DNA of 64,000 nucleotides from Leucobacter sp. 7(1). GTDB taxonomy: Bacteria > Actinomycetota > Actinomycetes > Actinomycetales > Microbacteriaceae. The notes under the pieces were generated by a model. That model saw only the letters and a list, made by a program, of their open reading frames with translations, did no database searches and was not told where the DNA came from. The position numbers and the translations under genes were made by a program. The stretch lies in contig NZ_FUID01000026.1 of NCBI RefSeq assembly GCF_900163635.1, forward strand, positions 124,001 to 188,000. The letters are read 5' to 3'. Numbering within the stretch: position 1 is the first letter of the stretch; every line of letters starts with the position of its first letter. Below, in pieces: positions 25,888 to 43,385 of the stretch.

Positions 25888-25986
25888 GCGTGTTCCTCCT
25901 TGAACAGCCCGCTCCAACGCTCCCATCGTAGGGCCGCCCTCGGAAACCCTGCGCCGAAACTGGGGCTGAGCACGCGAAACCTTATG

Positions 25987-26019
25987 TTTGTACACCCCAC
26001 GCAGGGTCAGCCGTACAAA
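25987..26019. promoter_or_regulatory. Inverted repeat TTTGTAC-N19-GTACAAA
   Basis: Perfect seven-base arms lie 19 bases apart in the shared promoter region of the amine oxidase and ABC operon 2. Spacing and position fit an operator for a dimeric regulator such as the PucR protein at 23191. Confidence 0.4.
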
Positions 26020-26073
26020 GCTATGAAACTTGGCCGGGGCGGTAACGAAGAGGTAACACGGCGGGGTCAGCCG
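26001..26073. repeat. Direct repeat pair, 60-base period
   Basis: GCAGGGTCAGCCG at 26001-26013 and GCGGGGTCAGCCG at 26061-26073 differ at one base and lie exactly 60 bases apart, close to six DNA turns. They lie in a promoter region, so they may be tandem activator sites. Confidence 0.4.
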
Positions 26074-26190
26074 AGGGTGTTCGCTGCTACCTTCAGGTCG
26101 TGCCGGGGTCCGAGACACCGCCAGATGCGGGATCGCGCCGGCACCGATCATGACCACAGCGGACCACGATCACAACGAAGTGAGGAACAC

Positions 26191-27336
26191 ATGTCCAGTC
26201 TGAGAACCCTCCCGTCACGCCGCGGCGTGACCGCGCGGCGCGGGCTTACGCTCGCCGCGGGCACCGCAGCGCTCGCCCTCGCGCTTGTCGGCTGCAGCGG
26301 CGGCGGTCCCGCCGAACCCGCGCCCGAGCGCGACCTCGGTACCCCCGTCGCCGGTGAAATCAAGGCTGGCGCACTCGACGGTGTCACGCTGACGTTTGCC
26401 GGATCCGGTGGTGTATTCCAGGACGGCCAAAAGGCCGCGCTCTGGGATCCCTTCGCTGAAGCATCCGGAGCGACGTTCAACCAGGACGCCTTCGACGCAG
26501 GCAAACTCAAGGCGATGGTCGACAGCGGCAACGTCAGCTGGGATGTCGTCAACACGACCCAGTTCGACACTGCCCGCGGTTGCGGCACACTCTTCGAGAA
26601 GTACGACTACTCGCAGATCGACATCTCGAAAATCCCCGAGGGCACGATCACCGATGACTGCATGGTGCCCCAGATTATGTACGGCCTTGTCGTGGCCTAC
26701 AACACCGAAGCGTTTGGCGACAACCCGCCGACAAGCGCCGCAGACTTCTTCGACACCGAGAAGTTCCCCGGCAAGCGCACGGTGAGCCAGTCCACCTACG
26801 TCGACCCGCAGACCGTCGAGTTCGCGCTCACCGCGCAGGGCAAGGACCTGAAGAATCTGAAGCCCGAGGACATCGAGGGCGCCTTCGACATGTACAAGGA
26901 CCTCGGCGACGACGTCATCGGCTGGACCACAGGTGCCGCAGCACAGCAGCAGCTCGAGTCGGGTGAGGCCGTCATGGGGCTCGTCTGGTCGGGTCGCGGT
27001 TACGGTGCCGCGCAGGCCGGTGCCCCCATCGCTCCAATGTGGGACGAGTGGATGATCATGGTCGACTCGAATGGCATCCCGAAGGGCGTGAAGGACAAGC
27101 AGGCGGCATTCGCTGCGGTGAACTTCTCGCTCGGCGCGGAGCAGCAGGCGAAGATGACCGAGGAGACATCCTACGGCGGGGTCAACGTCGACGCGAAGCC
27201 GAACATGGACGAGCAGCTCACCACGTGGATGACCACGGAGCACCTCGATACGGGCATCGCCCCGAACGTCGACTTCTGGGTCGACAACTACGACGCTCTC
27301 GCTGCGGCGTGGGCTGGCTGGGCGACCGGTAACTGA
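26191..27336 (+). CDS. Polyamine-type ABC substrate-binding lipoprotein (system 2)
   Basis: A 381-residue lipoprotein with an Arg-rich signal peptide and lipobox LVGC (Cys35). The mature protein follows the PotD/PotF pattern: WDVVNTTQF, DYSQIDISKIPEG, TSAADFFDTEKFPGKR and LVWSGRGYGAAQ. It resembles the binding protein at 35811 along its length, so the two are likely paralogues. The ATG at 26191 has a GAGG ribosome site; an upstream frame that runs into the oxidase promoter is rejected. It opens a four-gene importer operon. Confidence 0.92.
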   Translation: MSSLRTLPSRRGVTARRGLTLAAGTAALALALVGCSGGGPAEPAPERDLGTPVAGEIKAGALDGVTLTFAGSGGVFQDGQKAALWDPFAEASGATFNQDAFDAGKLKAMVDSGNVSWDVVNTTQFDTARGCGTLFEKYDYSQIDISKIPEGTITDDCMVPQIMYGLVVAYNTEAFGDNPPTSAADFFDTEKFPGKRTVSQSTYVDPQTVEFALTAQGKDLKNLKPEDIEGAFDMYKDLGDDVIGWTTGAAAQQQLESGEAVMGLVWSGRGYGAAQAGAPIAPMWDEWMIMVDSNGIPKGVKDKQAAFAAVNFSLGAEQQAKMTEETSYGGVNVDAKPNMDEQLTTWMTTEHLDTGIAPNVDFWVDNYDALAAAWAGWATGN

Positions 27337-27341
27337 TCGCC

Positions 27342-28259
27342 ATGACTGAGTTCACCGTCACCGAGGGCGACGCGTCGACGCGCGCGATCGCCCTCGGTGC
27401 GGACCCCGGGGCCGCGAAGAAGCGAGGGCCGAAGAACTGGCGCCCGCTCCTGCTCCTGATCCCGGCGTTCGTCATCGTCTCCCTGTTTTTCCTGGCACCG
27501 CTCATCGACGTGTTTATCCGTTCGGTGACGGACCCGCAGCCCGGCATGCAGAACTATGTGTGGCTGTTTACGACCGAGGCGAATCTCACGGTGGTGCTGC
27601 GGACCTTCGGGACCGCGATCATTGTCACGATTGTGTGCCTCCTGCTCGCCTACCCGTATGCGTACCTCATGACAATCGTGTCGGATCGCACGCGGAACAT
27701 GATGCAGCTGTTCATTATGATGCCGCTGTGGACCTCGATTCTGGTTCGCACCCTCGCCTGGATGGTGCTGCTGCAGGACACTGGCCCGATCAACGGCATC
27801 CTCGCTGCATGGTTCGGGATCGGACCGATTCCGCTGATCCGCACGACGTTTGGTGTCGCGCTTGGCATGAGTCAGGTGCTGTTGCCGTTCATGGTGCTGC
27901 CGCTGTACTCGTCAATGTCGAAGATCGATAAGCGGCTCCTGCCGGCAGCCTCGAACCTGGGGGCAAACCCGATCACCGCGTTCTTCACGGTCTACCTGCC
28001 GCTGTCGAAGCCCGGCATCTTCTCGGGTGGCGTCACGGTCTTCATCCTCGGTCTCGGTTTCTACATCATTCCCGCGCTGCTCGGATCGTCGAAGGAGATC
28101 ATGATCTCGGCAATGATCCAGCAGCAGATCAGTGTGTTCCTCATGTGGGGCCAGGGCACCGCGCTCGGCATATTCCTCCTTGTGTGCACGATCCTGATTC
28201 TGGTTGTCGTGTCTCGCATGAATAAGGGCGGCAGTCTGTTCCCGGGGGTGAACCGCTAA
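27342..28259 (+). CDS. ABC transporter permease, PotB type (system 2)
   Basis: A 305-residue permease with about six membrane segments, starting with LLLLIPAFVIVSLFFLAPLIDVFIRS. The EAA-type loop reads LLPAASNLGANPITAFFTVYLPLSKPGI. It begins five bases after the binding protein stop and overlaps the next permease start (TAATG). It forms a heterodimeric channel with the permease at 28259. Confidence 0.93.
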   Translation: MTEFTVTEGDASTRAIALGADPGAAKKRGPKNWRPLLLLIPAFVIVSLFFLAPLIDVFIRSVTDPQPGMQNYVWLFTTEANLTVVLRTFGTAIIVTIVCLLLAYPYAYLMTIVSDRTRNMMQLFIMMPLWTSILVRTLAWMVLLQDTGPINGILAAWFGIGPIPLIRTTFGVALGMSQVLLPFMVLPLYSSMSKIDKRLLPAASNLGANPITAFFTVYLPLSKPGIFSGGVTVFILGLGFYIIPALLGSSKEIMISAMIQQQISVFLMWGQGTALGIFLLVCTILILVVVSRMNKGGSLFPGVNR

Positions 28260-29044
28260 TGACGTTCAAACGAGTGCTCGGCGCCTTTGCCGTGCTGATC
28301 GTGCTGTGGCTGATCCTGCCCACGCTCGTGATCATCCCCATGTCTTTCAACGAGGCACCGTCCTTCAACTTCCCGCCGAAGGGCTTCTCGCTGCGCTGGT
28401 ACGAGAACTTCTTCACGGACGTGACATGGATGAAGTCGCTGTTTTCCTCGCTGCAGGTCGCGGTGCTCACAATGATCGTGGCAACCGCCGTGGGCGTGCT
28501 CGCTGCGCTGGGGCTGTCGAAAGTGAAGTTCCGGGGCAAGGGGCTGCTGGAGGGATACTTCCTGCTCCCGCTGATTGTTCCGGGCATCGTGCTCGCGGTG
28601 GGTCTGTACTCACTGTTCCTCCGGATGAACCTGCTGGGCACGCTTCCCGGCTTCATTCTGGCGCACACGATTGTGGCGATGCCGCTCGTGATCACGAACG
28701 TGATGGCGTCGCTGCAGGGCCTGGACCCGCGGCTCGAACAGGCCTCGGCCTCACTCGGTGCTGGCCGGGTCCGCACCTTCTTCAGCATCACCCTGCCGCT
28801 CATTGCGCCGGGTGTGACCGCGGGTGCCCTGTTCGCGTTCGTCACTTCGTTTGACGAGGTGATCCTGTCGCTGTTCATTCAGAGTCCTTCACTGCAGACC
28901 CTGCCCGTGAAGATCTTCAACAGCGTCACCCAAACCAATGACCCCACGGTGGCAGCGGTGGCGGTGATCACGATGTTCACCTCAGTCGTCGTGATGCTGG
29001 TTGCCCAGTTTGCCACGCGGAAGAGAAAGCGACCGGTAGCGTGA
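28259..29044 (+). CDS. ABC transporter permease, PotC type (system 2)
   Basis: A 261-residue permease with the PotC hallmark IPMSFNEAPSFNFPPKGFSLRWYENFF after the first membrane segment and EAA-like loop LEQASASLGAGRVRTFFSITLPLIAPG. Its start overlaps the preceding gene by one base and its stop overlaps the ATPase start (GTGA), showing tight translational coupling. Confidence 0.93.
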   Translation: MTFKRVLGAFAVLIVLWLILPTLVIIPMSFNEAPSFNFPPKGFSLRWYENFFTDVTWMKSLFSSLQVAVLTMIVATAVGVLAALGLSKVKFRGKGLLEGYFLLPLIVPGIVLAVGLYSLFLRMNLLGTLPGFILAHTIVAMPLVITNVMASLQGLDPRLEQASASLGAGRVRTFFSITLPLIAPGVTAGALFAFVTSFDEVILSLFIQSPSLQTLPVKIFNSVTQTNDPTVAAVAVITMFTSVVVMLVAQFATRKRKRPVA

Positions 29045-30231
29045 ACGCTATGACTCACAACGACATCCCCGTGCCCGCCGGGCACGAGCAGGAGCTGCGC
29101 TCTGAGGGCCTGAACACGCAGGCGATCCACGCGATCGGCGATGCGGGCATCAGCCTGAACCAGGTCACCAAGCGCTACGGTGACAAGGCCGTGGTCGACG
29201 AGATCGACCTGGTGATCGAGCCGGGCGAGTTCATGACCTTCCTGGGCCCGTCGGGCTCGGGAAAAACCACAACGCTCAACATGATCGCGGGCTTCACCTC
29301 GGTGACCGAGGGAATGCTGCACATCTACGGCAAACCGGTGGCGAAGCTACCGCCGCACAAGCGCGACATCGGCATGGTGTTCCAGAACTACGCACTGTTC
29401 CCACACAAGACCGTTGCGGAGAACATCGCCTACCCGCTGCAGCGCCGCAAGATGAGCAAGGCGGAGCAGCAGCAAAAGGTTGCGACCGCCCTCGATATGG
29501 TGCGGATGGGGGAGTTTGGTGATCGCTTCCCGTCGGAACTCTCCGGCGGCCAGCAACAGCGCGTCGCCCTCGCCCGGGCGCTCGTCTACGAACCCCGCGT
29601 GCTGCTCATGGACGAGCCGCTGGGTGCACTCGACAAGAAGCTGCGCGAGTGGCTGCAGACCGAGATCAAGCGCATCCACCGCGAGGTCGGCTCGACGTTT
29701 GTCTACGTCACGCACGATCAGGAAGAGGCGCTGTCGATGTCTGACCGCATTGCGGTCTTCAATAACGGACGCATCGAGCAGGTCGGCACCTCGGAGGATC
29801 TCTACGAGGCACCGCAGACGCTGTTCGTGGGGCGCTTCCTTGGGGAGTCCACGGTGTTGCTCGGGAAGGGCGCAGCCGACGGAGATCGCCGCACCGCGAT
29901 CGATGTTGCCGGGCACCGCGTGGTGGCCGACGGCTTGAGTAGCCACGAAGATCTCGCGATCTTGATCCGGCCCGAGAATCTGCGGCTCGAGCCCGCCGGC
30001 ACCGCGCCGTCGGAGTCGCAGAACGCGATCCCGGTGACGATCCTGGACGTCACCTACCTCGGTGCGTCGCGCCGTTACACTGTGCGACTGCCCGATGGTA
30101 GTGAGGGCGCAGTGCGCCTGGGCCAGGACGCGCGGATCCACAACCGCGGCGACGAGGTCGCGATGATGTGGGACATCGCATCCGGCGTGCTGCTTGTGGA
30201 TACCGGTGAAGCCGGGGAATCCGCCACGTAG
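29041..30231 (+). CDS. Polyamine-type ABC transporter ATPase (system 2)
   Basis: A 396-residue ATPase. Walker A GPSGSGKT is at residues 69-76, followed by FQNYALFPHKTV, LSGGQQQR and LLMDEPLGALDKK; the C-terminal TOBE domain includes ILIRPENLRLEP. About 34 extra residues precede the usual PotA start, so the ATG nine bases downstream of the GTG or another internal start is possible. It completes ABC system 2 and is followed by a perfect 23-bp hairpin. Confidence 0.92.
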   Translation: MNAMTHNDIPVPAGHEQELRSEGLNTQAIHAIGDAGISLNQVTKRYGDKAVVDEIDLVIEPGEFMTFLGPSGSGKTTTLNMIAGFTSVTEGMLHIYGKPVAKLPPHKRDIGMVFQNYALFPHKTVAENIAYPLQRRKMSKAEQQQKVATALDMVRMGEFGDRFPSELSGGQQQRVALARALVYEPRVLLMDEPLGALDKKLREWLQTEIKRIHREVGSTFVYVTHDQEEALSMSDRIAVFNNGRIEQVGTSEDLYEAPQTLFVGRFLGESTVLLGKGAADGDRRTAIDVAGHRVVADGLSSHEDLAILIRPENLRLEPAGTAPSESQNAIPVTILDVTYLGASRRYTVRLPDGSEGAVRLGQDARIHNRGDEVAMMWDIASGVLLVDTGEAGESAT

Positions 30232-31897: not shown

Positions 31898-33388
31898 TTA
31901 GCGTGTGCTCCGACGGCGACGCAGTGTGAGTGCCAGTCCGCCGAGCGCGGCCGCACCACCGAGCATGCCGAGCGCCGTCGCCGGGGAGGCACCGGTCTGC
32001 GCGAGCCCACCAGCCGGCGGCTTCACCGGGGTGACGCCGGGCTTCACTGGCGGATCGACTGGTGGGTCGACTGGCGGGTCAACTGGCGGTTGCACGGGTG
32101 GATCGACGGGTGGGTCGACGGGTGGGTCGACCGGTGGGCTCACCGCCTTCGTGATGGTGATGGTCAGGGTGCCGGTGATTGTGTTTCCGAGGCGGTCGGC
32201 GACGCTGAATGTCACGGGGAACGTCCCGGCTGTCGGCGGTGTTCCGGAGAGCTCACCCGTTGTGGGGTCGAGGATCAGCCACTCGGGGGCGTCTTCGCCG
32301 AGTGCATACGATGTGGCGGGGAAACCCTCGGTGACGGTGATCACGTGGGCGAGAGGGGCCTTCGCCCGGCCTGTGGCGGTGTCCTCGCTCGTCACGTCGG
32401 CGCGCACGATGGGCATGGATACCCCGCCGCTGAACGTGTTGAACCGGCTGAATTCCTCGCGGAAGGTGTACTGCAGCTGCGTCGTCGAATCGATCAGGTT
32501 CAGGCTTACGATGGGGGCTTCGGGGGCACCCGGTGGAACGATCGCGCCACCCAGAGACGCGGTTGTTGTTCCGTCGTGGAGGGCGGTATGCCCGGTGACA
32601 TCGAACACGATCCGGGTCGCGCCGACTGGCACGTACAGGGTCGGTCCCTGCACTGACTGGAAGTTGATGACGTGGCTTGCGCTTGGATTGGCGACGAGCC
32701 CCTCCAAGCTGCGGATCCTGTTGGTGTTCGCTTGGAACGTGGTGAGATGTGTTGAATCCGCGAGTGGGGTGAGATCGCTCGTGCCAGTGTTTGTGATCCG
32801 GAGGGAGACCAGGGCGGGTTTCCCTGCCAGTGCTCCGATCTGGCCCTCCAGGGTGGGATTCTCGTCAACGGTGACCTCGGACAACTGTGAGAGGTTCTCG
32901 AGCCCGTCGAGCGAGGTGAGCTTGTTCGTAGTGGCGCTGAGCACGCTGAGCTGAGCCATGTCTTTCAGCGGCACGAGGCTTGATATCTGGTTCCCTGTGA
33001 GGCCCAGGTGCGTCATGGTGGTGAGTCCGGCGATCGGCGTCAGATCGGTGATCGCGTTGTGCTGCACAAAGATGCGCTTCACCTGGGTCGCGTGCTGCAA
33101 TCCGGCGAGCGAGACGATGCCACGGCCGTTGCAGTTGATTTCCGGGGAGATTGTGCCAAGCTCTGGGGCCGTGATTGCCTGGTCCGCGGGCCGCCCGCCC
33201 CCAAGCTGCTCGTTGAGGCAGGCCGCGAGCCCGGCATCCTCGATTTCGCCAAACGCGGCGGCTGAAGCGGGGGTTGCGATACCGAGGAGCCCGGTCGATC
33301 CGAGGAGCAGGGCCAGTGCGCCACCGGTGGCGAGAACGCCCCGCCGATTCCGGCGCCGTGTGCGTCGCTCAGAACGTATTTCCCCCAT
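31898..33388 (-). CDS. LRR surface protein with LAXTG sortase signal
   Basis: A 496-residue secreted, wall-anchored protein. Order of parts: Arg-rich signal peptide with likely cleavage after ASA (residue 43); leucine-rich repeats at about 95-235 (LTPIAGLTTMTHLGLTGNQI and similar); an Ig-like module at about 345-405 (LDPTTGELSGTPPTAGTFPV); a PPVD repeat spacer (about 417-448); LAQTG at 462-466; a membrane helix; and RRRR at the end. LAXTG is the motif used by class E sortases of high-GC actinobacteria. It probably displays the LRR head for binding to a partner surface or polymer. A GAGAGGAA ribosome site precedes the ATG. Confidence 0.9.
   Translation of the reverse strand: MGEIRSERRTRRRNRRGVLATGGALALLLGSTGLLGIATPASAAAFGEIEDAGLAACLNEQLGGGRPADQAITAPELGTISPEINCNGRGIVSLAGLQHATQVKRIFVQHNAITDLTPIAGLTTMTHLGLTGNQISSLVPLKDMAQLSVLSATTNKLTSLDGLENLSQLSEVTVDENPTLEGQIGALAGKPALVSLRITNTGTSDLTPLADSTHLTTFQANTNRIRSLEGLVANPSASHVINFQSVQGPTLYVPVGATRIVFDVTGHTALHDGTTTASLGGAIVPPGAPEAPIVSLNLIDSTTQLQYTFREEFSRFNTFSGGVSMPIVRADVTSEDTATGRAKAPLAHVITVTEGFPATSYALGEDAPEWLILDPTTGELSGTPPTAGTFPVTFSVADRLGNTITGTLTITITKAVSPPVDPPVDPPVDPPVQPPVDPPVDPPVDPPVKPGVTPVKPPAGGLAQTGASPATALGMLGGAAALGGLALTLRRRRSTR
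32046..32141 (-). repeat. Eight 12-base repeats coding for PPVx units
   Basis: Eight tandem 12-base units such as ACGGGTGGGTCG encode the proline-rich spacer PPVD (units 4 and 8 end in Q and K). Units differ at few positions; the two neighbouring units 6 and 7 are identical, so the array can change length by slippage or recombination and alter spacer length. Confidence 0.85.
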
Positions 33389-33507: not shown

Positions 33508-34758
33508 TTACTGGCCGACGACCATGATCTCGTGGGGCAGCTGCGAGAGGAGGCTCGTCTTGTCATCTTCAATGATGAACGTGTCGAGCACCCCGATGCC
33601 ACACATGCTCTCGAAGTTCGCGACCATGCCTGACTCGAAGACACGATCGTCGTCCTCGCCGCCCACCACCGTGAATTTCCACTCGCCGACCCAATCGGGT
33701 GGGAAGGCGATCCCCATTTCGTATCCCCCGATCCACACGCTCGAGTTGAGCTCAAAGACCCCAGCGTCCCGGTAGTAGGCGTAGAGCTCGGCGTTGACGT
33801 CGCCGATGCGCACCCCGGGGCGGGCGCGTTCGAGCAGGATGTCGAAGCCTCCTGCGAGGAGTTTGAGCAAATCCACGGCTGCCTGGGGCGGTTCGCGGAA
33901 TGTGTACATCTGCGATCGGTTTGAGTGGTAGCGCTTGAATACTCCGCACGGATCGACATCGAGAAAGTCGCTTTCCGTGATCACGCGACGGCCGGAGATC
34001 TCGTGGTACACGCCCAGGGCGGCGAGTCCGACGAACGCGACCTGGTGCAGTCCGGCGGGTTCACCGCCCGCCGCAGAGAGACCGCGGATGAGCTCACCGT
34101 GTGCATCCAGCTCGGTCATGCCGGGGCGGAGCACGTCGGCCAGGTGGAGGAGGCCGGAGTCGCAGATCGCGGCCGCCTGCTTGACGGCGACGATCTCGTC
34201 CGCGGACTTGATCATGCGGACACGGCGTGCGGTGAGGGTCGCGTCAACGACGCGCGCGCCGGCATCGAGGAGCGCACCCTCCATCATCTTTGACACTGCC
34301 GGGTTGGGGATCGCCGAGAAGAGTTCGATCCCCACGCGGGAGCCCGACACCCAGCCCTCCTGGACGAGTTCCCGCACGATGAATCGGAGCATCCCGTCGC
34401 GCTCGTAGCGGGGGAGGAGCCGTACGTCCTGCGCCACCGAAGTGCGGCGGATCATTTCTGTGTGTTCGATGCCTTCGAAGAGTACATACCCAGCGTCTAC
34501 TCTGACGACCGTGCACGTGAGCGGGCGCCAGTCGCGTGGCCCGTTCGCCTTGTACCAGCGAAGCGTCAGGCCGTGGAGCCAGTTCTGCGCCTCGGGCGAC
34601 GACAGTACGAGTGTGTCCACGCCGTCCTCGGCCATCGCCTGCTGTAGTCGCGTGAGTCGACGTGCGTACTCCTCTGGAGAGAAGGCAATGTGCGGTTCAG
34701 TGCCGGAAATCTGCTCTTGCTGTTCGGCAAGGAAACGGGTAATTGCGGGATCGAGCAT
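33508..34758 (-). CDS. Creatinase/ectoine-hydrolase-like M24 protein
   Basis: A 416-residue pita-bread fold protein of peptidase family M24: a creatinase-type N-terminal domain (about 25-180) and the M24 domain after it. Of the five usual metal ligands, Asp269, Glu383 and Glu397 remain, but the second Asp is Asn280 (YHSNRSQ) and the His is Tyr346 (GGYEMGI). His252 (VYHEISG) aligns with the catalytic-His region of creatinase. GYEMGIAFPPDW recalls the ectoine hydrolase (DoeA/EutD) group. It may open an amidine or cyclic amide rather than cut peptides. The ATG at 34758 has AGAGG five bases upstream. A TetR-type operator precedes it. Confidence 0.82.
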   Translation of the reverse strand: MLDPAITRFLAEQQEQISGTEPHIAFSPEEYARRLTRLQQAMAEDGVDTLVLSSPEAQNWLHGLTLRWYKANGPRDWRPLTCTVVRVDAGYVLFEGIEHTEMIRRTSVAQDVRLLPRYERDGMLRFIVRELVQEGWVSGSRVGIELFSAIPNPAVSKMMEGALLDAGARVVDATLTARRVRMIKSADEIVAVKQAAAICDSGLLHLADVLRPGMTELDAHGELIRGLSAAGGEPAGLHQVAFVGLAALGVYHEISGRRVITESDFLDVDPCGVFKRYHSNRSQMYTFREPPQAAVDLLKLLAGGFDILLERARPGVRIGDVNAELYAYYRDAGVFELNSSVWIGGYEMGIAFPPDWVGEWKFTVVGGEDDDRVFESGMVANFESMCGIGVLDTFIIEDDKTSLLSQLPHEIMVVGQ

Positions 34759-34818
34759 GCTCACCTCTGAGTGTCTCTGGGTCGTTGGAGCAGGTCGACA
34801 AGGCGACGCTGCATTCTC

Positions 34819-34834
34819 ATAATAACATATTATT
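34819..34834. promoter_or_regulatory. TetR-type operator copy 1 (M24 promoter)
   Basis: On the minus strand this reads AATAATATGTTATTAT, part of a 16-base palindrome with 14 matching positions (34820-34835). It differs only at the two central bases from the site at 35760-35775. In a GC-rich genome such an AT-rich palindrome stands out. It lies 61 bases before the M24 start. Confidence 0.75.
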
Positions 34835-34881
34835 ACAAGATCGCAGGTGGGTTCTCGGGGCTGCGGAGCGCCGACTCCGGG

Positions 34882-35646
34882 CTACGTTGCAGTCTGGAAT
34901 GACGTGGTGGAGTGAGGGGTCCGGAGCGCCTCGGCGACGACGTCGGGGGTGAGGGGGCGTGGCGCGGTTGGGTGGGTGGTGTGCGAGAGCGCCGCAACGT
35001 GTCGTGCGGCCACCTCGGGAGGAACGCCGAGCTGTGTGGATACCCAGTCATTGAGCACCTGCAGCATGAACTCCGCACTGATGCCCTCGGGGTCCGCGAG
35101 TGTGCGGATTGAGAGACCATCCATGAGCGCGAGGACGCCAGTTGCGATGCGATGAGGGTCGGCCCCGGAAGGGAGGCGGTCCGTTGTTGACAGGACCTCG
35201 AGGGCTTCCTCGAGCGGGTGAGCCCAGAGTTGATACACCTGCGTTGACACGCCGCGGAGGTGTTCGGAGCGGCCGGCTGCGGCCCAGAGCTCGCTCCAGA
35301 AGCCCCAGCGCTCGGGGAAGCCAATCGTCCCGTGCACGTGGAGGGCGTTCATGGCGTAAATGAGCTCCAGTGGATCTTCGATGCCCTGCAGGCGTCGCTG
35401 CGCCTCCTGGGAGATTGCGCGCATCATTACCGTGAAGGTCTCGTCCACAAGCTTGTCGCGGGTATCGAAATAATGCTGCACGAGGCCGAGACTCACCCCC
35501 GACTCGCGAGCGATATCTTTCAGCTTCGCGGCAACCACGCCGTCACGGGCGATGACTCGAATTGATCCCGTGAGGATCTCAGCGCGGCGCCGAGTGGCGA
35601 GATCTGGCTCTGTCCGGGGGATTGAAAGTTCTGAGGAATTCGCCAC
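34882..35646 (-). CDS. TetR-family transcriptional regulator
   Basis: A 254-residue regulator with the TetR helix-turn-helix at about residues 20-66 (ILTGSIRVIARDGVVAAKLKDIARESGVSLGLVQHYFDTRDKLVDE) and an all-helical ligand domain. It is followed by the M24 gene on the same strand and is divergent from ABC system 3. Matching palindromes in both flanking promoters make it the likely repressor of both. The start is GTG with only a weak ribosome site. The ligand is probably the transported compound or a breakdown product. Confidence 0.9.
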   Translation of the reverse strand: MANSSELSIPRTEPDLATRRRAEILTGSIRVIARDGVVAAKLKDIARESGVSLGLVQHYFDTRDKLVDETFTVMMRAISQEAQRRLQGIEDPLELIYAMNALHVHGTIGFPERWGFWSELWAAAGRSEHLRGVSTQVYQLWAHPLEEALEVLSTTDRLPSGADPHRIATGVLALMDGLSIRTLADPEGISAEFMLQVLNDWVSTQLGVPPEVAARHVAALSHTTHPTAPRPLTPDVVAEALRTPHSTTSFQTAT

Positions 35647-35759
35647 GCGAGGTCCATTCTGTTCGATGTGCGGAAGCCGCCATGCACTCGCCGCTGGTGT
35701 AGATCACTCTATGGGGCGGGGTCTGGGGTGCACAGCGACGGGCGGTCTTGCGAAATTGC

Positions 35760-35775
35760 AATAATGCGTTATTAT
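35760..35775. promoter_or_regulatory. TetR-type operator copy 2 (ABC system 3 promoter)
   Basis: AATAATGCGTTATTAT matches the site at 34819-34834 (read on the minus strand) at 14 of 16 positions, differing only in the two central bases. It overlaps the -10 box TATAAT (35773-35778) of the binding protein gene, so a bound repressor would block RNA polymerase directly. Confidence 0.78.
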
Positions 35776-35778
35776 AAT
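35773..35778 (+). promoter_or_regulatory. -10 box of ABC system 3
   Basis: A perfect TATAAT lies 32 bases before the ATG of the binding protein gene. The -35 region is weak (TTGCGA at 35748-35753, 19-base spacing). Confidence 0.65.
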
Positions 35779-35810
35779 ACTTCACACCCGCTGACGAAGG
35801 AGTCACGAAC

Positions 35811-36869
35811 ATGAGCCATCTCTCCCGCACGCTGCTTCCCGTAGCTGCCCTGGCTGCCCTCTCGCTCGCTGCCTGCTCCGCGGGAGGTTCCCCAGGCGAC
35901 TCGAACGCCGACGGCGGCACGCTTGTCTTCGCGAGTTACGGAAGCGCGTATCAGGACGCACAGAACGAAGCCTTTTTGACCCCCTGGGCCGCCGAAGCAG
36001 GGGTCACCGTGCAGAACGATGGACCGACCTCGTACCCAAAGATCCAGCAGATGGTGGAGTCGGGGAACGCGATTTGGGACGTCGTCGACACTGAGCCGTA
36101 TTTCCCCGTCGCGAATTGCGACACTCTTGTCGAAAAGATCGACTTCGCGAACATCGACACCTCGCAGTACCCCGAGGGCACGTGGTCCGACTGCTCAATC
36201 CCGATCGCCCAGTACTCCACGATGATGATCTATAGCACCGACACCTTTACCGGGTCCGCGGTACCCACGACACCCGCTGACTTCTTCGATCTTGAGAAGT
36301 TCCCCGGGACGCGGATGGTGCCGGGGTGGGCTGGAGCCGGGGCGCTTGAGTTCGCGTTGCTCGCGGATGGAGTTCCCGCAGAGAAGCTCTACCCACTCGA
36401 TACTGAGCGCGCGTACGCGAAGCTCGACACAATCCGTGACTCCCTGACGTTCTGGAATACGAGTTCGGAATCCCAGCAGGCGATGGAGGACGGCTCCGCC
36501 GACCTCTGGCTCGCTTGGTCGGGCCGCGGCTACGAGGCGGAGAACAACGGCGCGAAGATCGCGCCGGTGTGGGAGGACAATCTTCTCTCCTGGGCGAGCC
36601 TGAGCATCGTCAAGGGAAGCCCAAATCTCGAGCAGGCGCAGAGCTTTGTCGAGTACGCCGCGCAGGCGGCGCCGCAAGCGCGCTTCGCGGAGCTCCAGCC
36701 CTACTCGCCCGCGGACCTATCCGCTAAGCCGGAGCTGAATGATCTCCAGGAGAAGTGGAACGTCGCGAAGCCAGAGGTGCAGGATCAGTCGATCGTGACC
36801 AACGTGCAGTGGTGGGCGGACAACTCTGCCGAGGCGGAAACCGAGTGGACCGCTTGGTCGACGAGCTAA
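35811..36869 (+). CDS. Polyamine-type ABC substrate-binding lipoprotein (system 3)
   Basis: A 352-residue lipoprotein with signal peptide and lipobox LAAC (Cys22). The sequence parallels the binding protein at 26191: IWDVVDTEPYF, IDTSQYPEGTWSDCSIP, TPADFFDLEKFPGTR and LAWSGRGYEAENNG. An AAGGAG ribosome site precedes the ATG. It opens ABC system 3, whose promoter carries a TetR-type operator shared with the M24 hydrolase. The ligand is therefore probably the M24 substrate or a related amine compound. Confidence 0.92.
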   Translation: MSHLSRTLLPVAALAALSLAACSAGGSPGDSNADGGTLVFASYGSAYQDAQNEAFLTPWAAEAGVTVQNDGPTSYPKIQQMVESGNAIWDVVDTEPYFPVANCDTLVEKIDFANIDTSQYPEGTWSDCSIPIAQYSTMMIYSTDTFTGSAVPTTPADFFDLEKFPGTRMVPGWAGAGALEFALLADGVPAEKLYPLDTERAYAKLDTIRDSLTFWNTSSESQQAMEDGSADLWLAWSGRGYEAENNGAKIAPVWEDNLLSWASLSIVKGSPNLEQAQSFVEYAAQAAPQARFAELQPYSPADLSAKPELNDLQEKWNVAKPEVQDQSIVTNVQWWADNSAEAETEWTAWSTS

Positions 36870-36948
36870 GCCGTTGATCGACGTACCGGCCGGCAACACC
36901 ACGACCCGGCCGGTACTCTCCTTGCCCGCTCATCTCACCGGAGTTCCC

Positions 36949-37797
36949 ATGCGTCAATCGCGCCTCTTCAGTAGCGTCGCCGTCATCCCGGCGCTCGTCG
37001 TGATCCTCATCTTTTTCCTCCTCCCGATCGCCGTCATCCTCGTGCGTTCGTTCACCGATCCCGAGCCGGGGCTCGGACAGTACGCCGCCGCTCTCGCGGA
37101 TCCCACGACCCTCCGTGTCCTCGGTCGCACTTTTGCCACCGCGCTCATCGCGGTCCTCGCCTGCATCGCGCTCGGCTACCCGTTCGCGTATCTGATGACC
37201 CTTGTAGGCCCCACGGCCCGCGCCCTACTCATGGTGTTGGTGCTCGTCCCGTTCTGGACGTCTTTGATGGCCCGAACTTTTGCTTGGATCTCGCTCTTGC
37301 AGCGTGACGGCCCCGTCTCGGCGATCCTCGCCTTCTTTGGTGCGGAAAACGTCACGTTGCGCGGCACCCTCGCGGGTGTCGTGATCGCGATCGTCCAGAT
37401 CCTGCTGCCGTACATGATCCTCACGCTGTACACAGCGCTTGCCGCGATCGACCGGCGCCAGCTCGCCGCGGCCCAGAGCCTCGGAGCGAATCGGTTCCGT
37501 GCCTTCTGGCAGGTGTATTTGCCGCAGTCGCTCCCTGGGCTTTTCGCCGCGAGTTCCCTCGTGTTTATCTTGGCGCTCGGCTTCTACATCACCCCGCAGC
37601 TCATCGGAAGTCCGAAAGAAGCGATGATCGCGCAGGTGATCGGCCAGCGTGTCGAGAAGATCGTCGATTTCGCAGGCGCTGGTGCGCTCTCCGGAATCCT
37701 CCTCATTGCCACGATCGGGCTCTTCTGTATTGCCATTCTCGCGGTGGGCCCGCTCCGCCGCGGGATCGCCCAAATCGTCCCGGGAGGATCCCGATGA
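36949..37797 (+). CDS. ABC transporter permease, PotB type (system 3)
   Basis: A 282-residue permease: first membrane segment VIPALVVILIFFLLPIAVILVRS, then TDPEPGLGQY, and the EAA-type loop LAAAQSLGANRFRAFWQVYLPQSLPG. The ATG at 36949 is preferred because GGAG lies five bases upstream and homology starts here; a TTG at 36874 would add 25 unusual residues. Its stop overlaps the next permease start (ATGA). Confidence 0.9.
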   Translation: MRQSRLFSSVAVIPALVVILIFFLLPIAVILVRSFTDPEPGLGQYAAALADPTTLRVLGRTFATALIAVLACIALGYPFAYLMTLVGPTARALLMVLVLVPFWTSLMARTFAWISLLQRDGPVSAILAFFGAENVTLRGTLAGVVIAIVQILLPYMILTLYTALAAIDRRQLAAAQSLGANRFRAFWQVYLPQSLPGLFAASSLVFILALGFYITPQLIGSPKEAMIAQVIGQRVEKIVDFAGAGALSGILLIATIGLFCIAILAVGPLRRGIAQIVPGGSR

Positions 37798-38612
37798 ACG
37801 AACGCACTCGGATCCGACTTCCGCTCCGGCTCTGGGCCGGTGTCGCGGCGCTGCTGCTTGTTGCCCCGACCCTCGTGGTGATTCCGCTCTCGCTGACGGA
37901 CAAGCGAAGTTTCGCGTTTCCGATCGAGGGCTGGTCGCTCCAGTGGTACGAGAACTTTTTCACCGACCCGCGGTGGTTGAACTCGCTGGGCACCAGTCTT
38001 GCGTTGGCGTGTGTCGTCGGCGTTGTGGCGACAGTCATGGGAACCCTGGCCGCGCTCGGGCTGCGCGGGCTGCGGGCCAGACTCGCCTCGGCCGCCCAGA
38101 TCACGATGATGCTCCCCATACTGATCCCGGGGATCGTGGCTGCGATCGCGATCTTCGGGATGTATCTTCGGTGGGGGCTGAACGGTTCGCCGCTCGGTAT
38201 TGCGCTCGCGCACATCGCTTTGGCGATCCCCTTTGTATTGATACCGGTGACCACGGCGCTGCGCGGGCTCGACGAGACACAGATCCGAGCGGCCGCCGTT
38301 CTGGGAGCGGGACCCGTCGCGCGCTTCACTCAGGTTCAGCTCCCGGTACTCCTGCCGGGCATCATGACGGGGTTCATCTTCGCGTTCGTGACCAGCCTCG
38401 ACGAGGTCGTTGTGGCGTACTTCCTGCAGTCACCGACTGTGCGCACGCTCCCCGTGCAGATGTATAGCTCAGTCACTGTCGAAACAGACCCCAGCATCGC
38501 GGCGGCTTCGACGTTGCTGCTCGTGCTGTCCACCCTCATCATCTTGATTCCCCGCCTCGTGCAAGTTGTGCACGAGCGCCGTAGCGCACAACGACTTGGA
38601 GACGCGGTATGA
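37794..38612 (+). CDS. ABC transporter permease, PotC type (system 3)
   Basis: A 272-residue permease with the PotC pattern VIPLSLTDKRSFAFPIEGWSLQWYENFF and loop IRAAAVLGAGPVARFTQVQLPVLLPG. Start and stop both overlap neighbours by four bases (ATGA), so the four importer genes are made as one coupled unit. Confidence 0.92.
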   Translation: MNERTRIRLPLRLWAGVAALLLVAPTLVVIPLSLTDKRSFAFPIEGWSLQWYENFFTDPRWLNSLGTSLALACVVGVVATVMGTLAALGLRGLRARLASAAQITMMLPILIPGIVAAIAIFGMYLRWGLNGSPLGIALAHIALAIPFVLIPVTTALRGLDETQIRAAAVLGAGPVARFTQVQLPVLLPGIMTGFIFAFVTSLDEVVVAYFLQSPTVRTLPVQMYSSVTVETDPSIAAASTLLLVLSTLIILIPRLVQVVHERRSAQRLGDAV

Positions 38613-39742
38613 CTCTCACTCCCTCCACTGGATCCGAGCTGCTCCTGCGCGGGCTCGTCAAACGGTACGCTGGCACGGCTGCTGTTGCGAACGTCGACTT
38701 GGACGTTGCGTCTGGCGAATTCCTCACCCTCTTGGGGCCGAGTGGCTCCGGGAAAACAACAACCCTCTCGATGGTGGCCGGGTTCACCGAACCGACAAGC
38801 GGCAGCGTGATCTGCGACGGGTCTGAAATTACGGCAATCCCGCCCCACAAACGCGGGCTCGGCATGGTGTTTCAAAACTACTCACTCTTTCCGCACCTGA
38901 CAGTCCGGGAAAACGTGGAGTTCCCCCTGCGCCAGCGAGGCGTCCCCAAGGGGGAGCGTGCGCGGCGCGCGCTGGAGGCGCTCGATCTTGTCGAACTGGG
39001 CGGACGGGCCAACGCCAAGCCGAGCCAGCTCAGCGGAGGGCAGCAGCAGCGGGTGGCGATCGCGCGGGCGCTCGTGTTTGAGCCCCGCTTGCTCCTCATG
39101 GACGAACCGTTCGGTGCGCTGGATCGCGCGCTGCGCGAACGGCTGCAGTTGGAGCTGCGCTCGCTTCACAAGGAACTCGGGATTACCGTCATTTTCGTGA
39201 CGCACGATCAGGAAGAAGCACTGACGCTCTCCGACCGGATCGCGGTGTTCAACGAGGGTCGTATCGAGCAGGTCGGCACGCCGCAGGACCTCTACGAGCG
39301 GCCGGAAACGCTGTTTGTGGCCCGCTTCATCGGCGAATCGAACGCGTTCCCCGGCGACGTCGTGGGCGGCACCTTCACCACGCCGCAGGGACTGCGCCTT
39401 CCCGCGGCGGACGTGCCCGCCGGGCCGGCGGTCGCGATCGTGCGCCCCGAGCGCTTCCGCTTCGCGTCCGAACGCGACACGACGTCTGAGCGCGAGGTTT
39501 CCGGCGTGGTGCGCGACGTCACGTATCTCGGGGCGCAGCGCCGCGTCGAGATCTCGTCCGCGAGCGGCCCGCTGATCGTCCGTGCGGGCGTTGACGCCGC
39601 CGTCCCGGAACCCGGTGCCGACGTGCGGCTCACCTGGGCTGCCGAGCACTCTCGAATCTTTGCCACCCCACACACCACGATCGAAACGAGAACACCATGG
39701 ACCGAAACCCTCGCCCCGTCCACGTCAAGCTCGCTGAGCTGA
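38609..39742 (+). CDS. Polyamine-type ABC transporter ATPase (system 3)
   Basis: A 377-residue ATPase with Walker A GPSGSGKT at residues 43-50, FQNYSLFPHLTV, LSGGQQQR and LLMDEPFGALDRA, and a C-terminal TOBE domain (AIVRPERFRFAS). Its 3' end overlaps the following cupin gene by 46 bases, an unusually long overlap that suggests recent fusion of reading ends or a start-site shift of the cupin. Confidence 0.92.
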   Translation: MTLTPSTGSELLLRGLVKRYAGTAAVANVDLDVASGEFLTLLGPSGSGKTTTLSMVAGFTEPTSGSVICDGSEITAIPPHKRGLGMVFQNYSLFPHLTVRENVEFPLRQRGVPKGERARRALEALDLVELGGRANAKPSQLSGGQQQRVAIARALVFEPRLLLMDEPFGALDRALRERLQLELRSLHKELGITVIFVTHDQEEALTLSDRIAVFNEGRIEQVGTPQDLYERPETLFVARFIGESNAFPGDVVGGTFTTPQGLRLPAADVPAGPAVAIVRPERFRFASERDTTSEREVSGVVRDVTYLGAQRRVEISSASGPLIVRAGVDAAVPEPGADVRLTWAAEHSRIFATPHTTIETRTPWTETLAPSTSSSLS

Positions 39743-40098
39743 CCCCCGTCGATGCCGCGAACGCCCCGACGCGCGTGCGCATCAACCGGGTGATCACCCG
39801 CGAGGAACACCAGAGCGAGCTGACCCAGGGCGTGTGCTGGATGGAGCCGGGGGAGCAAACGAACCGGTGGTCGAGCCGCGAGGTGTTCGACCCGGCCGAG
39901 GCCGACCACTGGTACGGGTCGGTCGACGAGACCTACTACATCATCCGCGGTCAGCTGCGGCTGACCTGGGACGAGGGCGTGTTCGAGCTGGGGCCCGACG
40001 ACACTGTCTACCTCGCCCCGGGGTGGACCTACCACCTGGAAAACGTCGGGTCGGAACCCGCGTTTTTCGTCTACAACATGACGCCGGCGCAGGAGTGA
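39697..40098 (+). CDS. Single-domain cupin protein
   Basis: A 133-residue small beta-barrel. The cupin core runs from about residue 60: HWYGSVDETYYIIRGQLRLTWDEG (first motif), then ELGPDDTVYLAPGWTYHLENVG (second motif) with His ligands. It has no helix-turn-helix. It is placed between the ABC ATPase and the deacetylase and may bind a metal and act on, or sense, the imported compound. The start ATG lies inside the ATPase gene; a later start would remove conserved N-terminal residues. Confidence 0.82.
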   Translation: MDRNPRPVHVKLAELTPVDAANAPTRVRINRVITREEHQSELTQGVCWMEPGEQTNRWSSREVFDPAEADHWYGSVDETYYIIRGQLRLTWDEGVFELGPDDTVYLAPGWTYHLENVGSEPAFFVYNMTPAQE

Positions 40099-40135
40099 AG
40101 CTGCAAGCCACGGCGTGAGCGCAGAAGGGCACACG

Positions 40136-41233
40136 ATGACACCGCACGAACCGATCGCGTTTCACTTTGATGCGCGAGTACTCGAACACGACACCGGCCT
40201 GGCGTTGCACGAAGCAGCGGAGAGCCCCTGGTTTGTCGCGAACGAGCCGCACACCGAGGGGCGGCTTCGGATCGAACGCATGCACGACATCTTGGAACGG
40301 GGCCCGCTTGCGGATCGTATCCGGTTTGCACCCGGACGTCTTGCCGCAGAGGACGAGCTGGCGCGGGTCCACGATGAGGACTATATCGCCGCGATTCGGC
40401 GGGCTACTGAACGTGGCGGCGGCTGGGTGACAGGCACCACGAGACTCGGATCGACCTCCTACGAGCCGCTGCTCGCCGGGGCCGGCACGGCGCTCGCAGC
40501 AGCGGAAACAGTGATGAGCGGGGCAGCTCCGATGGCGTACGCGTTGACGCGCCCCCCGGGTCACCATGCCCAGCGAGCCCAGGCCGACGGCTACTGCTTC
40601 TTCAACGGGGCGGCACTCGCGGCGGATGCCGCGCGGCGCGCCGGTGCGGAGCGTGTCCTGGTGATCGACTGGGACGTACATCACGGCAACGGGACACAAG
40701 ACATTTTCTATGAGCGCGACGATGTGCTGACGGTCAGCGTGCACATGAACCACGGTGCCTGGGGGGCCAGCCACCCGCAGACCGGGCAACTTGACGAGGT
40801 TGGGGCAGGGGCGGGGATCGGCTACAACCAGAACATCCCGCTGCCTTTGGGGGCCGGGAACGCCGGGTATCTCCGGTCATTTGACGAGGTGATCGCGCCG
40901 CTTGCCGAGCGCTTCGCTCCGGACATGATTGTGTGTGCGAGCGGGCAGGATGCAAGCGCGTACGACCCGAATGGGCGGCACAACGTTTCGATGCCTGGCT
41001 TCTTCGGTATCGGCCAGCGGGTGCGTGCGCTTGCAGATCGCTATAGCGAAGGCCGCGCGGTGCTCGTGCAGGAGGGAGGGTACAACCCTTCATATGCGCC
41101 CTATTGCCTGTTGGCGACGGTTGAAGGGCTTCTCGGTGCGACCCCGACACCGGATCCACTCGCGTACGTTCCTGACCAAACCCTCGGGCTCGACACGCTC
41201 TTTGCGGCAATACGGTCACCGCGAGACGAATAG
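40136..41233 (+). CDS. HDAC-family deacetylase (acetylpolyamine amidohydrolase-like)
   Basis: A 365-residue zinc amidohydrolase of the arginase/deacetylase superfamily. The charge-relay pair His143-His144 is in RPPGHHA; zinc ligands Asp180 and His182 are in IDWDVHHGNG, the third is Asp272 (ASGQDAS); Tyr316 is in QEGGY. Bacterial members remove acetyl groups from acetylpolyamines or related amides. The ATG at 40136 has AGAAGG upstream and is preferred to the GTG at 40115. Its place after a polyamine-type importer supports N-acetyl-amine deacetylation as the first catabolic step. N-acetyl-diaminobutyrate is a possible alternative substrate. Confidence 0.9.
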   Translation: MTPHEPIAFHFDARVLEHDTGLALHEAAESPWFVANEPHTEGRLRIERMHDILERGPLADRIRFAPGRLAAEDELARVHDEDYIAAIRRATERGGGWVTGTTRLGSTSYEPLLAGAGTALAAAETVMSGAAPMAYALTRPPGHHAQRAQADGYCFFNGAALAADAARRAGAERVLVIDWDVHHGNGTQDIFYERDDVLTVSVHMNHGAWGASHPQTGQLDEVGAGAGIGYNQNIPLPLGAGNAGYLRSFDEVIAPLAERFAPDMIVCASGQDASAYDPNGRHNVSMPGFFGIGQRVRALADRYSEGRAVLVQEGGYNPSYAPYCLLATVEGLLGATPTPDPLAYVPDQTLGLDTLFAAIRSPRDE

Positions 41234-41294
41234 ATGGGCGTGCGAGAGAACTGCTTGCGGCGAGCCCGTGTCGAATGTACGGTGGGGGAAACGA

Positions 41295-41315
41295 TACTGA
41301 ACGCTTTGTTCAGTA
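41295..41315. promoter_or_regulatory. Palindrome upstream of the XRE-cupin regulator
   Basis: TACTGAAC and GTTCAGTA are perfect eight-base arms around five bases. The site lies 40 bases before the regulator start, so it is probably the regulator's own operator. No second clear copy was found in the neighbouring promoters. Confidence 0.55.
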
Positions 41316-41355
41316 CAGATGTCGCCCCGGCGACCGCCCCATTCGAGGAGGAATG

Positions 41356-41964
41356 GTGACTGGAGAGGACTTGGTGCCCGAGCGGGAGCTGGGACATCGC
41401 GTCGCTGCGTTCCGGGAGCTACGGGGCATGAGCCTCCGCGCGCTCGCCGCAGCCGCTGGCGTGAGCTCGAGTTTCCTCAGCCAGCTTGAGAACGGCCACA
41501 CCAACGCCAGCGTCGCGTCACTCAGGAAAGTTGCGGCCGCACTTGGCGTCTCTCCCGCGCAACTGCTGGATGACAGCGCAGTGCACACCAGAGGAGTGCT
41601 CCGTGCAGTAGACAGGCCAACGCTCCCGCTTGACGGAGCCGAGAAATACGTTGTGGCTCTGCCGCCGCTCCGAAACCTCGAGGTCTATGCCGGGCGCTTC
41701 GCTCCGGGGGGTTCGACCGGAGCAGAAACGTACGCGCACGGAAACGCGCAGGAGATCCTCGTTGTCACAGCGGGCACGGTGACCCTGGAGCTCGGGACGG
41801 AACGATTTTCGCTTCGCGAGGACGACTCCATCGAGTTTGTGAGCTCGATCCCGCATCGCGTGATCAACGAGTCGGCAGAGCCAGCAGCGGTGCTCTGGAT
41901 CAATAGTCCACCCACCCCCGATGAGGTCCCTCATCGGCCCGAGGAATCTCCCCTCACACCCTGA
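41356..41964 (+). CDS. XRE-cupin transcriptional regulator
   Basis: A 202-residue regulator with an XRE helix-turn-helix at about residues 12-66 (SLRALAAAAGVSSSFLSQLENGHTNASVASLRKVAAALGV) and a C-terminal cupin at about 100-190 (EILVVTAGTVTLELGTERF). This is the PuuR-type design used for polyamine and amino acid catabolism. The GTG at 41356 follows AGGAGG by four bases; an ATG one codon earlier is too close to the ribosome site. It probably controls the deacetylase or the oxidase that flank it. Confidence 0.88.
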   Translation: MTGEDLVPERELGHRVAAFRELRGMSLRALAAAAGVSSSFLSQLENGHTNASVASLRKVAAALGVSPAQLLDDSAVHTRGVLRAVDRPTLPLDGAEKYVVALPPLRNLEVYAGRFAPGGSTGAETYAHGNAQEILVVTAGTVTLELGTERFSLREDDSIEFVSSIPHRVINESAEPAAVLWINSPPTPDEVPHRPEESPLTP

Positions 41965-42014
41965 CCCGCAACGTCGTCGGTCACTACCCAAGAGAAAGAA
42001 AAGGACCCCTTCTG

Positions 42015-43385
42015 ATGATCAATGGCAATGTGTCGCACTGGTGGGAGCAGATTGGTGCACCCCAGCCGCGACCGGAGCTCCCGGGCGACCTCACTGCCGA
42101 CGTGGCGATCGTGGGCGGCGGCTACACCGGGCTGTGGACTGCCTACTACCTGAAGCAGGCGAAGCCGGAGCTGCGCGTCGTGATCATCGAGGAGCGGCAC
42201 GTCGGCTACGGGGCTTCCGGCCGCAACGGTGGCTGGCTCACCGCGGCGATTACGGGCGGACGCGAGCAGTACGTGAAGAGCCACGGGCGCGACGCTGCGG
42301 AGCGGTTCCAACGGGCGATGAACGAGACCGTCGACGAGGTGATCAGAGTCGCCGCGGCGGAGGGGATCGACGCCGATATCAAGAAGGGTGGCGAGTTCAA
42401 CGTCGCCTACACGCCCGCTCAGGAGGCGCGGATCCGAGCCTTCGCTGCCGCCGAGCAGCAGTGGAAGTATGCGGACCTCAGCCTGCTTGAGGCCCCCGAA
42501 GCGATAGCGAAGATCAACGTCGCACACACCCGGGCTGCCGTGTGGCACCCGCACGCTGCTCGGATCCAGCCTGCGAAGCTCGCAGCCGGCCTCGCCGCCG
42601 CGGTTGAGCGTATGGGTGTCGAGATCTACGAGCGCACCCGCGCCGTCGAGATATCTCCGCGGAGCGTCCGCACCACCCACGGCACCGTCTCCGCCCAGTA
42701 TGTGGTGCGTGCCACGGAGGGCTTCACCGCAAACCTCAAGGGGCTGCACCGGCTCTGGCTCCCGATGAACTCCTCACTGATCGCCACCGAGCCGTTGTCG
42801 GCCGCCGTGTGGGACGAGCTGAACTGGAACCAGGGCGAGGTGCTTGGCGACTTCGCGCACGTCTATATGTACGCGCAGCGCACGGCCGACAACCGCATTG
42901 CGATCGGCGGGCGTGGCGTCCCCTACAAGTATGGCTCGAAGACCGATACCGACGGTGAGACTGCGCCGTCCACGGTGGACACGCTCAGCGAGATCCTGCA
43001 CCGCTTCTTCCCGGCCACGCAGGGGGCGGCGGTCGATCATGTCTGGTCGGGCGTGCTGGGCGTACCGCGTGACTGGGCCGCGACCGTCGGCCTGGACCGC
43101 GAGACCGGCATCGCCTGGGGTGGCGGCTATGTTGGCACGGGCGTCACCTCCACAAACCTGGCGGGACGTACAATCACCGACCTGATTCTCGGCAACGACT
43201 CCGAGATCGCGGGCCTGCCCTGGGTCAACCACCGGGTCCGCAAGTGGGAGCCGGAGCCGCTGCGCTGGGTCGCCACGAAGGGGCTCTACGCGGCGTACGG
43301 AATGGCCGACCGCACGGAGCTCGCTGGCCGTCAGAAGACCTCCCCGATCGCTCACATCGCCGATGTGATTACCGGCCGCGGCTAG
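42015..43385 (+). CDS. PuuB-like FAD-dependent amine oxidoreductase
   Basis: A 456-residue D-amino-acid-oxidase-type flavoprotein. The FAD fold is VAIVGGGYTGLWTAYYLKQ (about residues 30-48), then GYGASGRNGGWLTAAITGGRE, characteristic of gamma-glutamylputrescine oxidase (PuuB/OrdL). The C-terminal WGGGYVGTGVTSTNLAGRTITDLI contacts FAD. It would oxidise an amine such as gamma-glutamylputrescine to an aldehyde with release of ammonia and peroxide. No PuuA-type ligase is present in the window, so a different N-substituted amine is possible. Confidence 0.88.
   Translation: MINGNVSHWWEQIGAPQPRPELPGDLTADVAIVGGGYTGLWTAYYLKQAKPELRVVIIEERHVGYGASGRNGGWLTAAITGGREQYVKSHGRDAAERFQRAMNETVDEVIRVAAAEGIDADIKKGGEFNVAYTPAQEARIRAFAAAEQQWKYADLSLLEAPEAIAKINVAHTRAAVWHPHAARIQPAKLAAGLAAAVERMGVEIYERTRAVEISPRSVRTTHGTVSAQYVVRATEGFTANLKGLHRLWLPMNSSLIATEPLSAAVWDELNWNQGEVLGDFAHVYMYAQRTADNRIAIGGRGVPYKYGSKTDTDGETAPSTVDTLSEILHRFFPATQGAAVDHVWSGVLGVPRDWAATVGLDRETGIAWGGGYVGTGVTSTNLAGRTITDLILGNDSEIAGLPWVNHRVRKWEPEPLRWVATKGLYAAYGMADRTELAGRQKTSPIAHIADVITGRG

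Follow-up and report, generated by a model that had tools for sequence, protein, structure and literature searches.

The window, a stretch of 64,000 nucleotides from contig NZ_FUID01000026.1 of Leucobacter sp. 7(1), raises the question of whether two near-identical palindromes on either side of a TetR-type regulator gene tie an ABC importer and an M24-fold hydrolase to one repressor, and of what the central two bases, by which the palindromes differ, stand for. The features of the locus are the following:

33508..34764, minus strand: M24-fold hydrolase, predicted to be controlled from operator 1; closest solved relatives ectoine hydrolase DoeA
34819..34834, minus strand: predicted operator 1, AATAATATGTTATTAT, preceding the M24 gene; equivalent in 10/10 genomes with an M24 orthologue of at least 84% identity, own genome included
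34819..34827, minus strand: putative extended -10 element TGTTATTAT of the M24 promoter, site positions 8-16; TG in 9/10 genomes
34882..35646, minus strand: putative TetR-family repressor gene (tetR), 254 aa, BetI-type C-terminal domain; Pfam TetR_N and TetR_C_6
35706..35711, minus strand: candidate tetR -10 box TAGAGT, 48 bp from operator 2; TAnnGT in 10/11 genomes
35748..35753, plus strand: putative -35 box TTGCGA of the importer promoter, from the promoter scan; TTG in 10/11 genomes at this spacing
35760..35775, plus strand: predicted operator 2, AATAATGCGTTATTAT, preceding the importer operon; equivalent in 11/11 genomes, own genome included
35770..35775, plus strand: putative -10 box TATTAT of the importer promoter, inside operator 2; identical in 11/11 genomes, 16-bp spacer
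35811..36869, plus strand: solute-binding protein (SBP) of the importer, first gene behind operator 2
36874..37797, plus strand: ABC permease 1 (domain search)
37794..38612, plus strand: ABC permease 2 (domain search)
38609..39742, plus strand: PotA-like ABC ATPase (domain and NCBIfam search)
39697..40098, plus strand: small cupin, frame overlapping the ATPase end; predicted operon member, 10/10 relatives
40115..41233, plus strand: HDAC-like amidohydrolase, predicted last common gene of the operon; 10/10 relatives

A scan of all contigs of the genome (3.92 Mb in 106 contigs, 99.5% complete, 65% G+C) retrieved the exact motif AATAATNNGTTATTAT twice, and both copies flank tetR, one before the M24 gene on the minus strand and one before the importer, just as the original prediction had placed them. 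They are unlike at the central two bases only, which also agrees with that prediction for this genome. Operator 1 lies 54 bp before the listed M24 start codon (34764) and operator 2 lies 35 bp before the listed SBP start (35811). Within the 14-bp core AATAATnnGTTATT sits the inverted repeat AATAA-N4-TTATT, and a trailing AT lengthens one arm only, at both sites the arm on the side of the predicted regulated gene. The independent-base estimate is 0.0003 exact copies per genome, and with up to three mismatches the window holds four matches (two of them shifted plus-strand readings of operator 1) versus a shuffle mean of 0.10; none of 100 shuffles reached four. A chance repeat is ruled out by this shuffle control together with the genome-wide scan and the survey of Leucobacter genomes.

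The genome-wide 16-mer scan, which had been suggested along with the prediction, added to the two exact copies a single place with two mismatches (C76:40178-40193; L003 1501-1516), and the motif is accordingly not common elsewhere in the genome. This third place is an imperfect inverted repeat with one mismatch in AATAA-N4-TTATT, located 34 bp before the frame of an amino-acid permease; it adjoins a second palindrome, GGACAACTTGTCC. Related permeases are present in 10/10 relatives, but a close one only in G434 (71%), the others reaching 39% at most. Seven of the 20 permease loci (L094-L100) were scanned for the motif, and the 4.4-kb locus of G434 contains no match better than six mismatches. 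We have rejected a conserved third operator, as nothing alike stands at the close orthologue of G434. The place is taken as chance because it is not conserved; at most it is a weak target in this genome alone.

The affiliation of the regulator with the TetR family agrees with its N-terminal helix-turn-helix (TetR_N, PF00440: 31.1 bits, cut-off 24) and with a predicted palindromic operator before the neighbouring genes that is co-inherited with the regulator. BetI, the choline-sensing repressor of the family, provides the best-scoring NCBIfam model and the Pfam C-terminal domain, but the model score remains far below its cut-off (74.3 vs 201.3 bits), and no bet gene was the best hit of any neighbouring protein scanned. 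In the ten orthologues the helix-turn-helix is 81-91% identical to that of the window TetR and the remainder of the protein 43-60%, unaligned residues being scored as mismatches. The sequence of the recognition helix is SLGL(V/I)QHYF in the orthologues and SIGMIQHHF in three distant homologues (28-34% identity), which have ATAATAA-like palindromes upstream, and it reads SPGIVHYYF in the distant homologue of G323, which has no palindrome. This distribution fits, without proving it, a reading of the ATAAT arm by QH(Y/H)F. The gene is divergent to that of the SBP at a distance of 164 bp and stands in tandem with the M24 gene, 117 bp apart. According to a published study, TetR proteins located less than 200 bp from a divergent neighbour are the likeliest to regulate that neighbour (PMC3511530).

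Motif and TetR are inherited together at the level of orthologues. A TetR homologue was found at E<=1e-15 in 15 of 54 Leucobacter genomes, comprising 11 orthologues (55-100% identity, own genome included) and four distant proteins (28-33%). The motif pattern was defined from the genome of Leucobacter sp. 7(1) alone and then searched elsewhere; the exact form occurs in 11/11 genomes with a TetR orthologue and in 0/43 others, a ratio that does not represent eleven independent events because the genomes belong to one genus and share ancestry. Two of the distant homologues (G408, G411) have a site with one mismatch upstream of their own tetR gene and a third (G419) has a two-mismatch form upstream, while the 3.6-kb locus of the fourth (G323, 29%) holds no such site, its best match having four mismatches. 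In G408 (L068, 3548-11338) the distant homologue and its ATAATAA-type palindrome lie amid other genes in a similar layout, with a family-3 solute-binding ABC system and a TPP enzyme to one side; the other side carries an M20 hydrolase and an aminotransferase.

Beyond the genus, the exact motif was detected in two of the 398 genomes of the family sample (ten of them Leucobacter), and TetR at E<=1e-25 in the same two. The class sample yielded TetR at E<=1e-20 in 2/394 genomes; in both samples at most six candidates per genome were scored. The second class match (G739, 30%) carries VSVGMLQHYF, and an imperfect palindrome, ATAATAGTGTCGTATTAT, lies upstream of it, chosen as the best of one 3.5-kb locus without a control. 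The symmetrical form ATAATAANNNNTTATTAT, searched without mismatches, is missing from all 286 class genomes; it is missing even in the own genome, which is among them, so that the class search neither widens nor narrows the wider family.

These distributions bear on the reading that the motif is just a promoter sequence which the two genes have in common, or is bound by a different regulator, with TetR as a bystander. The motif does hold a -10-like TATTAT, and TetR binding of the site is a prediction; but a general promoter would be expected in many places and genomes, whereas the motif with up to one mismatch is confined to 13/54 genomes, each of which belongs to the 15 with a TetR homologue. 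Moreover, it is an inverted repeat whose orthologous sites flank tetR. We regard this reading as very improbable, and a general promoter motif has been rejected given the rarity of the sequence in the family sample and in the Leucobacter genomes.

The structural conservation of the locus was investigated in 15 stretches, 11 for the ten relatives with an orthologue (L059-L067, plus L072 and L073, both from G436) and four for the distant ones (L068-L071). The gene order M24 - TetR - [SBP, two permeases, ATPase, cupin, HDAC-like deacylase] is kept. A tetR gene divergent to the series from SBP to the HDAC-like gene, with the importer site between, is present in 10/10 relatives, the HDAC-like protein of G426 being seen as a 60-residue match only. 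In 9/10 the second site stands before an M24 gene, which lies behind tetR in eight of them and on the end of another contig in G436. The tenth relative, G434, has neither an M24 orthologue behind tetR (2.2 kb examined) nor an M24 site; its assembly consists of 540 contigs (90% complete, 8% contamination). Ten of the 54 genomes encode an M24 protein of at least 84% identity, namely those with both sites, and the eight remoter M24 proteins listed (36-46%) are located away from every motif site found. In the class sample, M24 at E<=1e-40 was detected in 2/296 genomes, with no further close relative. The link between importer and hydrolase that the original prediction had drawn is thus upheld by synteny and site conservation in the nine relatives that possess the hydrolase orthologue.

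All 21 sites at the orthologous loci (11 importer, 10 M24) match the 14 fixed bases exactly. Mean pairwise identity, ungapped and anchored on the site, is 0.99 for the importer site and 0.97 for the M24 site, and the 70-bp flanks before and after reach 0.35/0.40 and 0.30/0.32, respectively, values that are lowered by indels. The median identity at fourfold-degenerate positions is 0.51 for both M24 (45 pairs, maximum 0.67) and SBP (55 pairs, maximum 0.69), which exceeds the roughly 0.36 expected from the third-position composition of M24. The divergence at fourfold positions makes it unlikely that plain inertia of common ancestry has kept the sites. When the tetR-SBP region was aligned with gaps, the columns that never vary from one start codon to the other comprised the site, the ribosome-binding region of SBP and one pair of columns each in the TTGC box, in the candidate tetR -10 box and immediately ahead of the tetR start; the other invariant columns belong to the coding ends.

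The same comparison weighs on the idea that TetR controls mainly the divergent importer and that M24 is read mainly from the tetR transcript, its own site being minor or auxiliary. The tandem arrangement across 117 bp would allow this, and 34740-35830 yielded no terminator-like site. On the other hand, conservation of the M24 site comes close to that of the importer site, and the M24 site is missing in G434, where the M24 orthologue is missing as well, and we therefore consider the idea improbable.

The putative promoter element kept in all genomes compared is TATTAT, which forms the final six bases of the site. The original prediction had let the site overlap a TATAAT box; here the site indeed shares three of six bases with a TATAAT at 35773-35778, but this place reads TATAAT in just 3/11 genomes, TATGAT in 7/11 and neither in 1/11. 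At operator 2 the promoter scan retrieved TTGCGA-16-TATTAT. For operator 1 it gave no promoter in the minus-strand direction of M24, and none was to be expected because the scan requires a -35; a promoter-like pair on the plus strand (34795-34823) points away from M24. Sixteen bp before TATTAT, a TTG hexamer stands in 10/11 importer promoters (TGGACA in G434) and in 0/10 M24 promoters. Conversely, TGnTATTAT, formed by a T at site position 8 and the invariant G, occurs in 9/10 M24 and 0/11 importer promoters. The M24 site of G407 reads GG and breaks the TG rule, and it is the sole one of the ten with a TTG hexamer at 15-19 bp (best hexamer computed per site, the rest read by eye from the alignment). 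Extended -10 promoters, which carry such a TG, are a familiar concept; the literature we searched yielded nothing on them in actinobacteria. Since the M24 promoters lack a recognisable -35, their assignment to this class hangs on the TG alone. The 16-bp site thus reads as a putative operator and promoter element in one.

The original prediction had named the two central bases as the only difference between the copies. They do differ between the two sites, but they are not free, as each site class keeps its own centre: GC in 10/11 importer sites (AC in 1/11), with C at position 8 in 11/11, and AT in 8/10 M24 sites (TT and AG in 1/10 each), with T at position 8 in 9/10. Preservation of the centre per site (GC 10/11, AT 8/10) in otherwise diverged DNA indicates that the centre matters. 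It could do so by tuning the affinity of TetR, one promoter being derepressed before the other and contacts of RNA polymerase being irrelevant, and spacer bases of palindromic operators can shift affinity through DNA shape. Against this interpretation stands the coupling of C at position 8 with TTG at 16 bp, which are jointly present or absent in 20/21 sites (the exception, G434, combines C with TGGACA), an association that is statistically weak because there are just two site classes. We judge affinity tuning unlikely, though clearly less so than the two alternatives discussed above. Instead, we take promoter class to determine position 8, a view that is an argument and falls short of proof given two site classes and related genomes.

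The best overall explanation, in which we place high confidence, is that TetR, until a ligand releases it, acts on two promoters embedded in its operators, and that RNA polymerase reads the centre of the site. TetR-family proteins are usually dimers, and a TetR dimer would bind both 14-bp inverted repeats AATAA-N4-TTATT (AT-extended towards the gene), thereby blocking two promoters whose -10 boxes sit inside the sites. Blocking of the first would silence the M24 hydrolase and blocking of the second the ABC importer operon with cupin and HDAC-like deacylase. The repressor would be freed by a ligand, which is probably either the compound taken up or the first product of its breakdown, and uptake and breakdown would then be induced together. 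The central two bases would be read by RNA polymerase and not by TetR, with C at position 8 going with a -35-dependent promoter (importer) and T with an extended -10 promoter without a -35 (hydrolase). Judged from the DNA, one repressor very probably switches importer and hydrolase on together in an ordinary mode of control, site and promoter sharing bases, and the regulon probably takes in cupin and deacylase, too.

The arrangement resembles the TetR/tetA paradigm in that the putative repressor gene is divergent to a transport operon and its predicted palindromic operator overlaps the putative target promoter. It differs by the second, near-identical site downstream of tetR in front of a separate enzyme gene and by the position of operator 2 relative to the candidate tetR -10 box. 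Between them lie 25-48 bp, variable across genomes and without overlap: TAnnGT is located at 28-48 bp in 10/11 genomes and GAGAAT at 25 bp in the eleventh.

The nature of the proteins points to a common pathway. The best solved relatives of the SBP are annotated as polyamine-binding, GABA-sensor and agropine proteins. Those of the M24 protein are DoeA (E 1.6e-18), followed by proline dipeptidases and, lower, creatinase (E 5.5e-7), and its stretch GYemGIafPPDW resembles GYpiGIsyPPDW of DoeA. Aligned with the dipeptidase 3q6d, the protein has SN where the second aspartate (SD) would stand. We take this aspartate to be a metal ligand; its replacement and the solved relatives make a ring or amidine hydrolase seem likelier than a peptidase. 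The HDAC-like protein belongs to its family by PF00850 (266 bits), matches HDAC6-type and bacterial amidohydrolases, and has the intact-looking active-site motifs PGHHA, DWDVHHGNG and EGGY.

A parallel is offered by the ectoine system EutD/EutE (DoeA/DoeB), in which ectoine is opened by the hydrolase and then loses its acetyl group to the deacetylase, the product of the hydrolase acts as inducer in the EnuR system, and importer, hydrolase and deacetylase belong to one regulon as they probably do here (PMC8739950). By analogy, the inducer may be the hydrolase product in Leucobacter as well. Unlike the ectoine system, the M24 protein is far under the cut-offs of the DoeA and EutD models (84.8 vs 575 and 79.8 vs 613 bits), the deacylase is of the HDAC family, the ABC importer is of the polyamine/GABA/opine class, and TetR stands in place of a MocR/GabR regulator. 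At the end of its importer operon (L067, 8653-9798), G434 encodes a different M24 protein, 24% identical, which scores 229 bits with the DoeA model (cut-off 575); the hydrolase has apparently been swapped for another M24 protein within the regulon.

Further genes surround the locus. Behind the HDAC-like gene, 41275-43385 of the plus strand encode an HTH-cupin regulator (PuuR among the NCBIfam hits) and a DAO-family oxidoreductase, one or both of which are present in 5/10 relatives in the stretches compared. A second PotABCD-like ABC system, which lacks the operator (25813-30231, plus strand), lies near the regulon in 6/10 relatives in the same stretches. A PPVDPPVD-repeat protein, which we read as a leucine-rich-repeat surface protein (31898-33388, minus strand), is located between an MFS transporter gene and M24 and has no match in the 15 stretches; the MFS transporter gene adjoins M24 in six relatives.

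A more far-reaching version, which we put forward tentatively and hold to be rather less probable than its opposite, assigns the arms to the repressor and the centre plus right arm to RNA polymerase, with two promoter classes kept by selection genus-wide, and combines the DoeA-like M24 protein and the HDAC-family deacylase in an undescribed route of uptake and breakdown that would be parallel to, and separate from, EutD/EutE. The analysis equips an uncharacterised TetR with a sharply defined predicted operator and a list of targets, and it makes the recognition helix testable. Importer (polyamine/GABA/opine class), M24 hydrolase and HDAC-like deacylase are joined in one likely pathway, so that the substrate can be sought within a narrower range. 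The regulon itself would be of an ordinary kind; its conserved centre is a clean natural case of operator and promoter on common bases, and the instructive twist lies in how the two share them.
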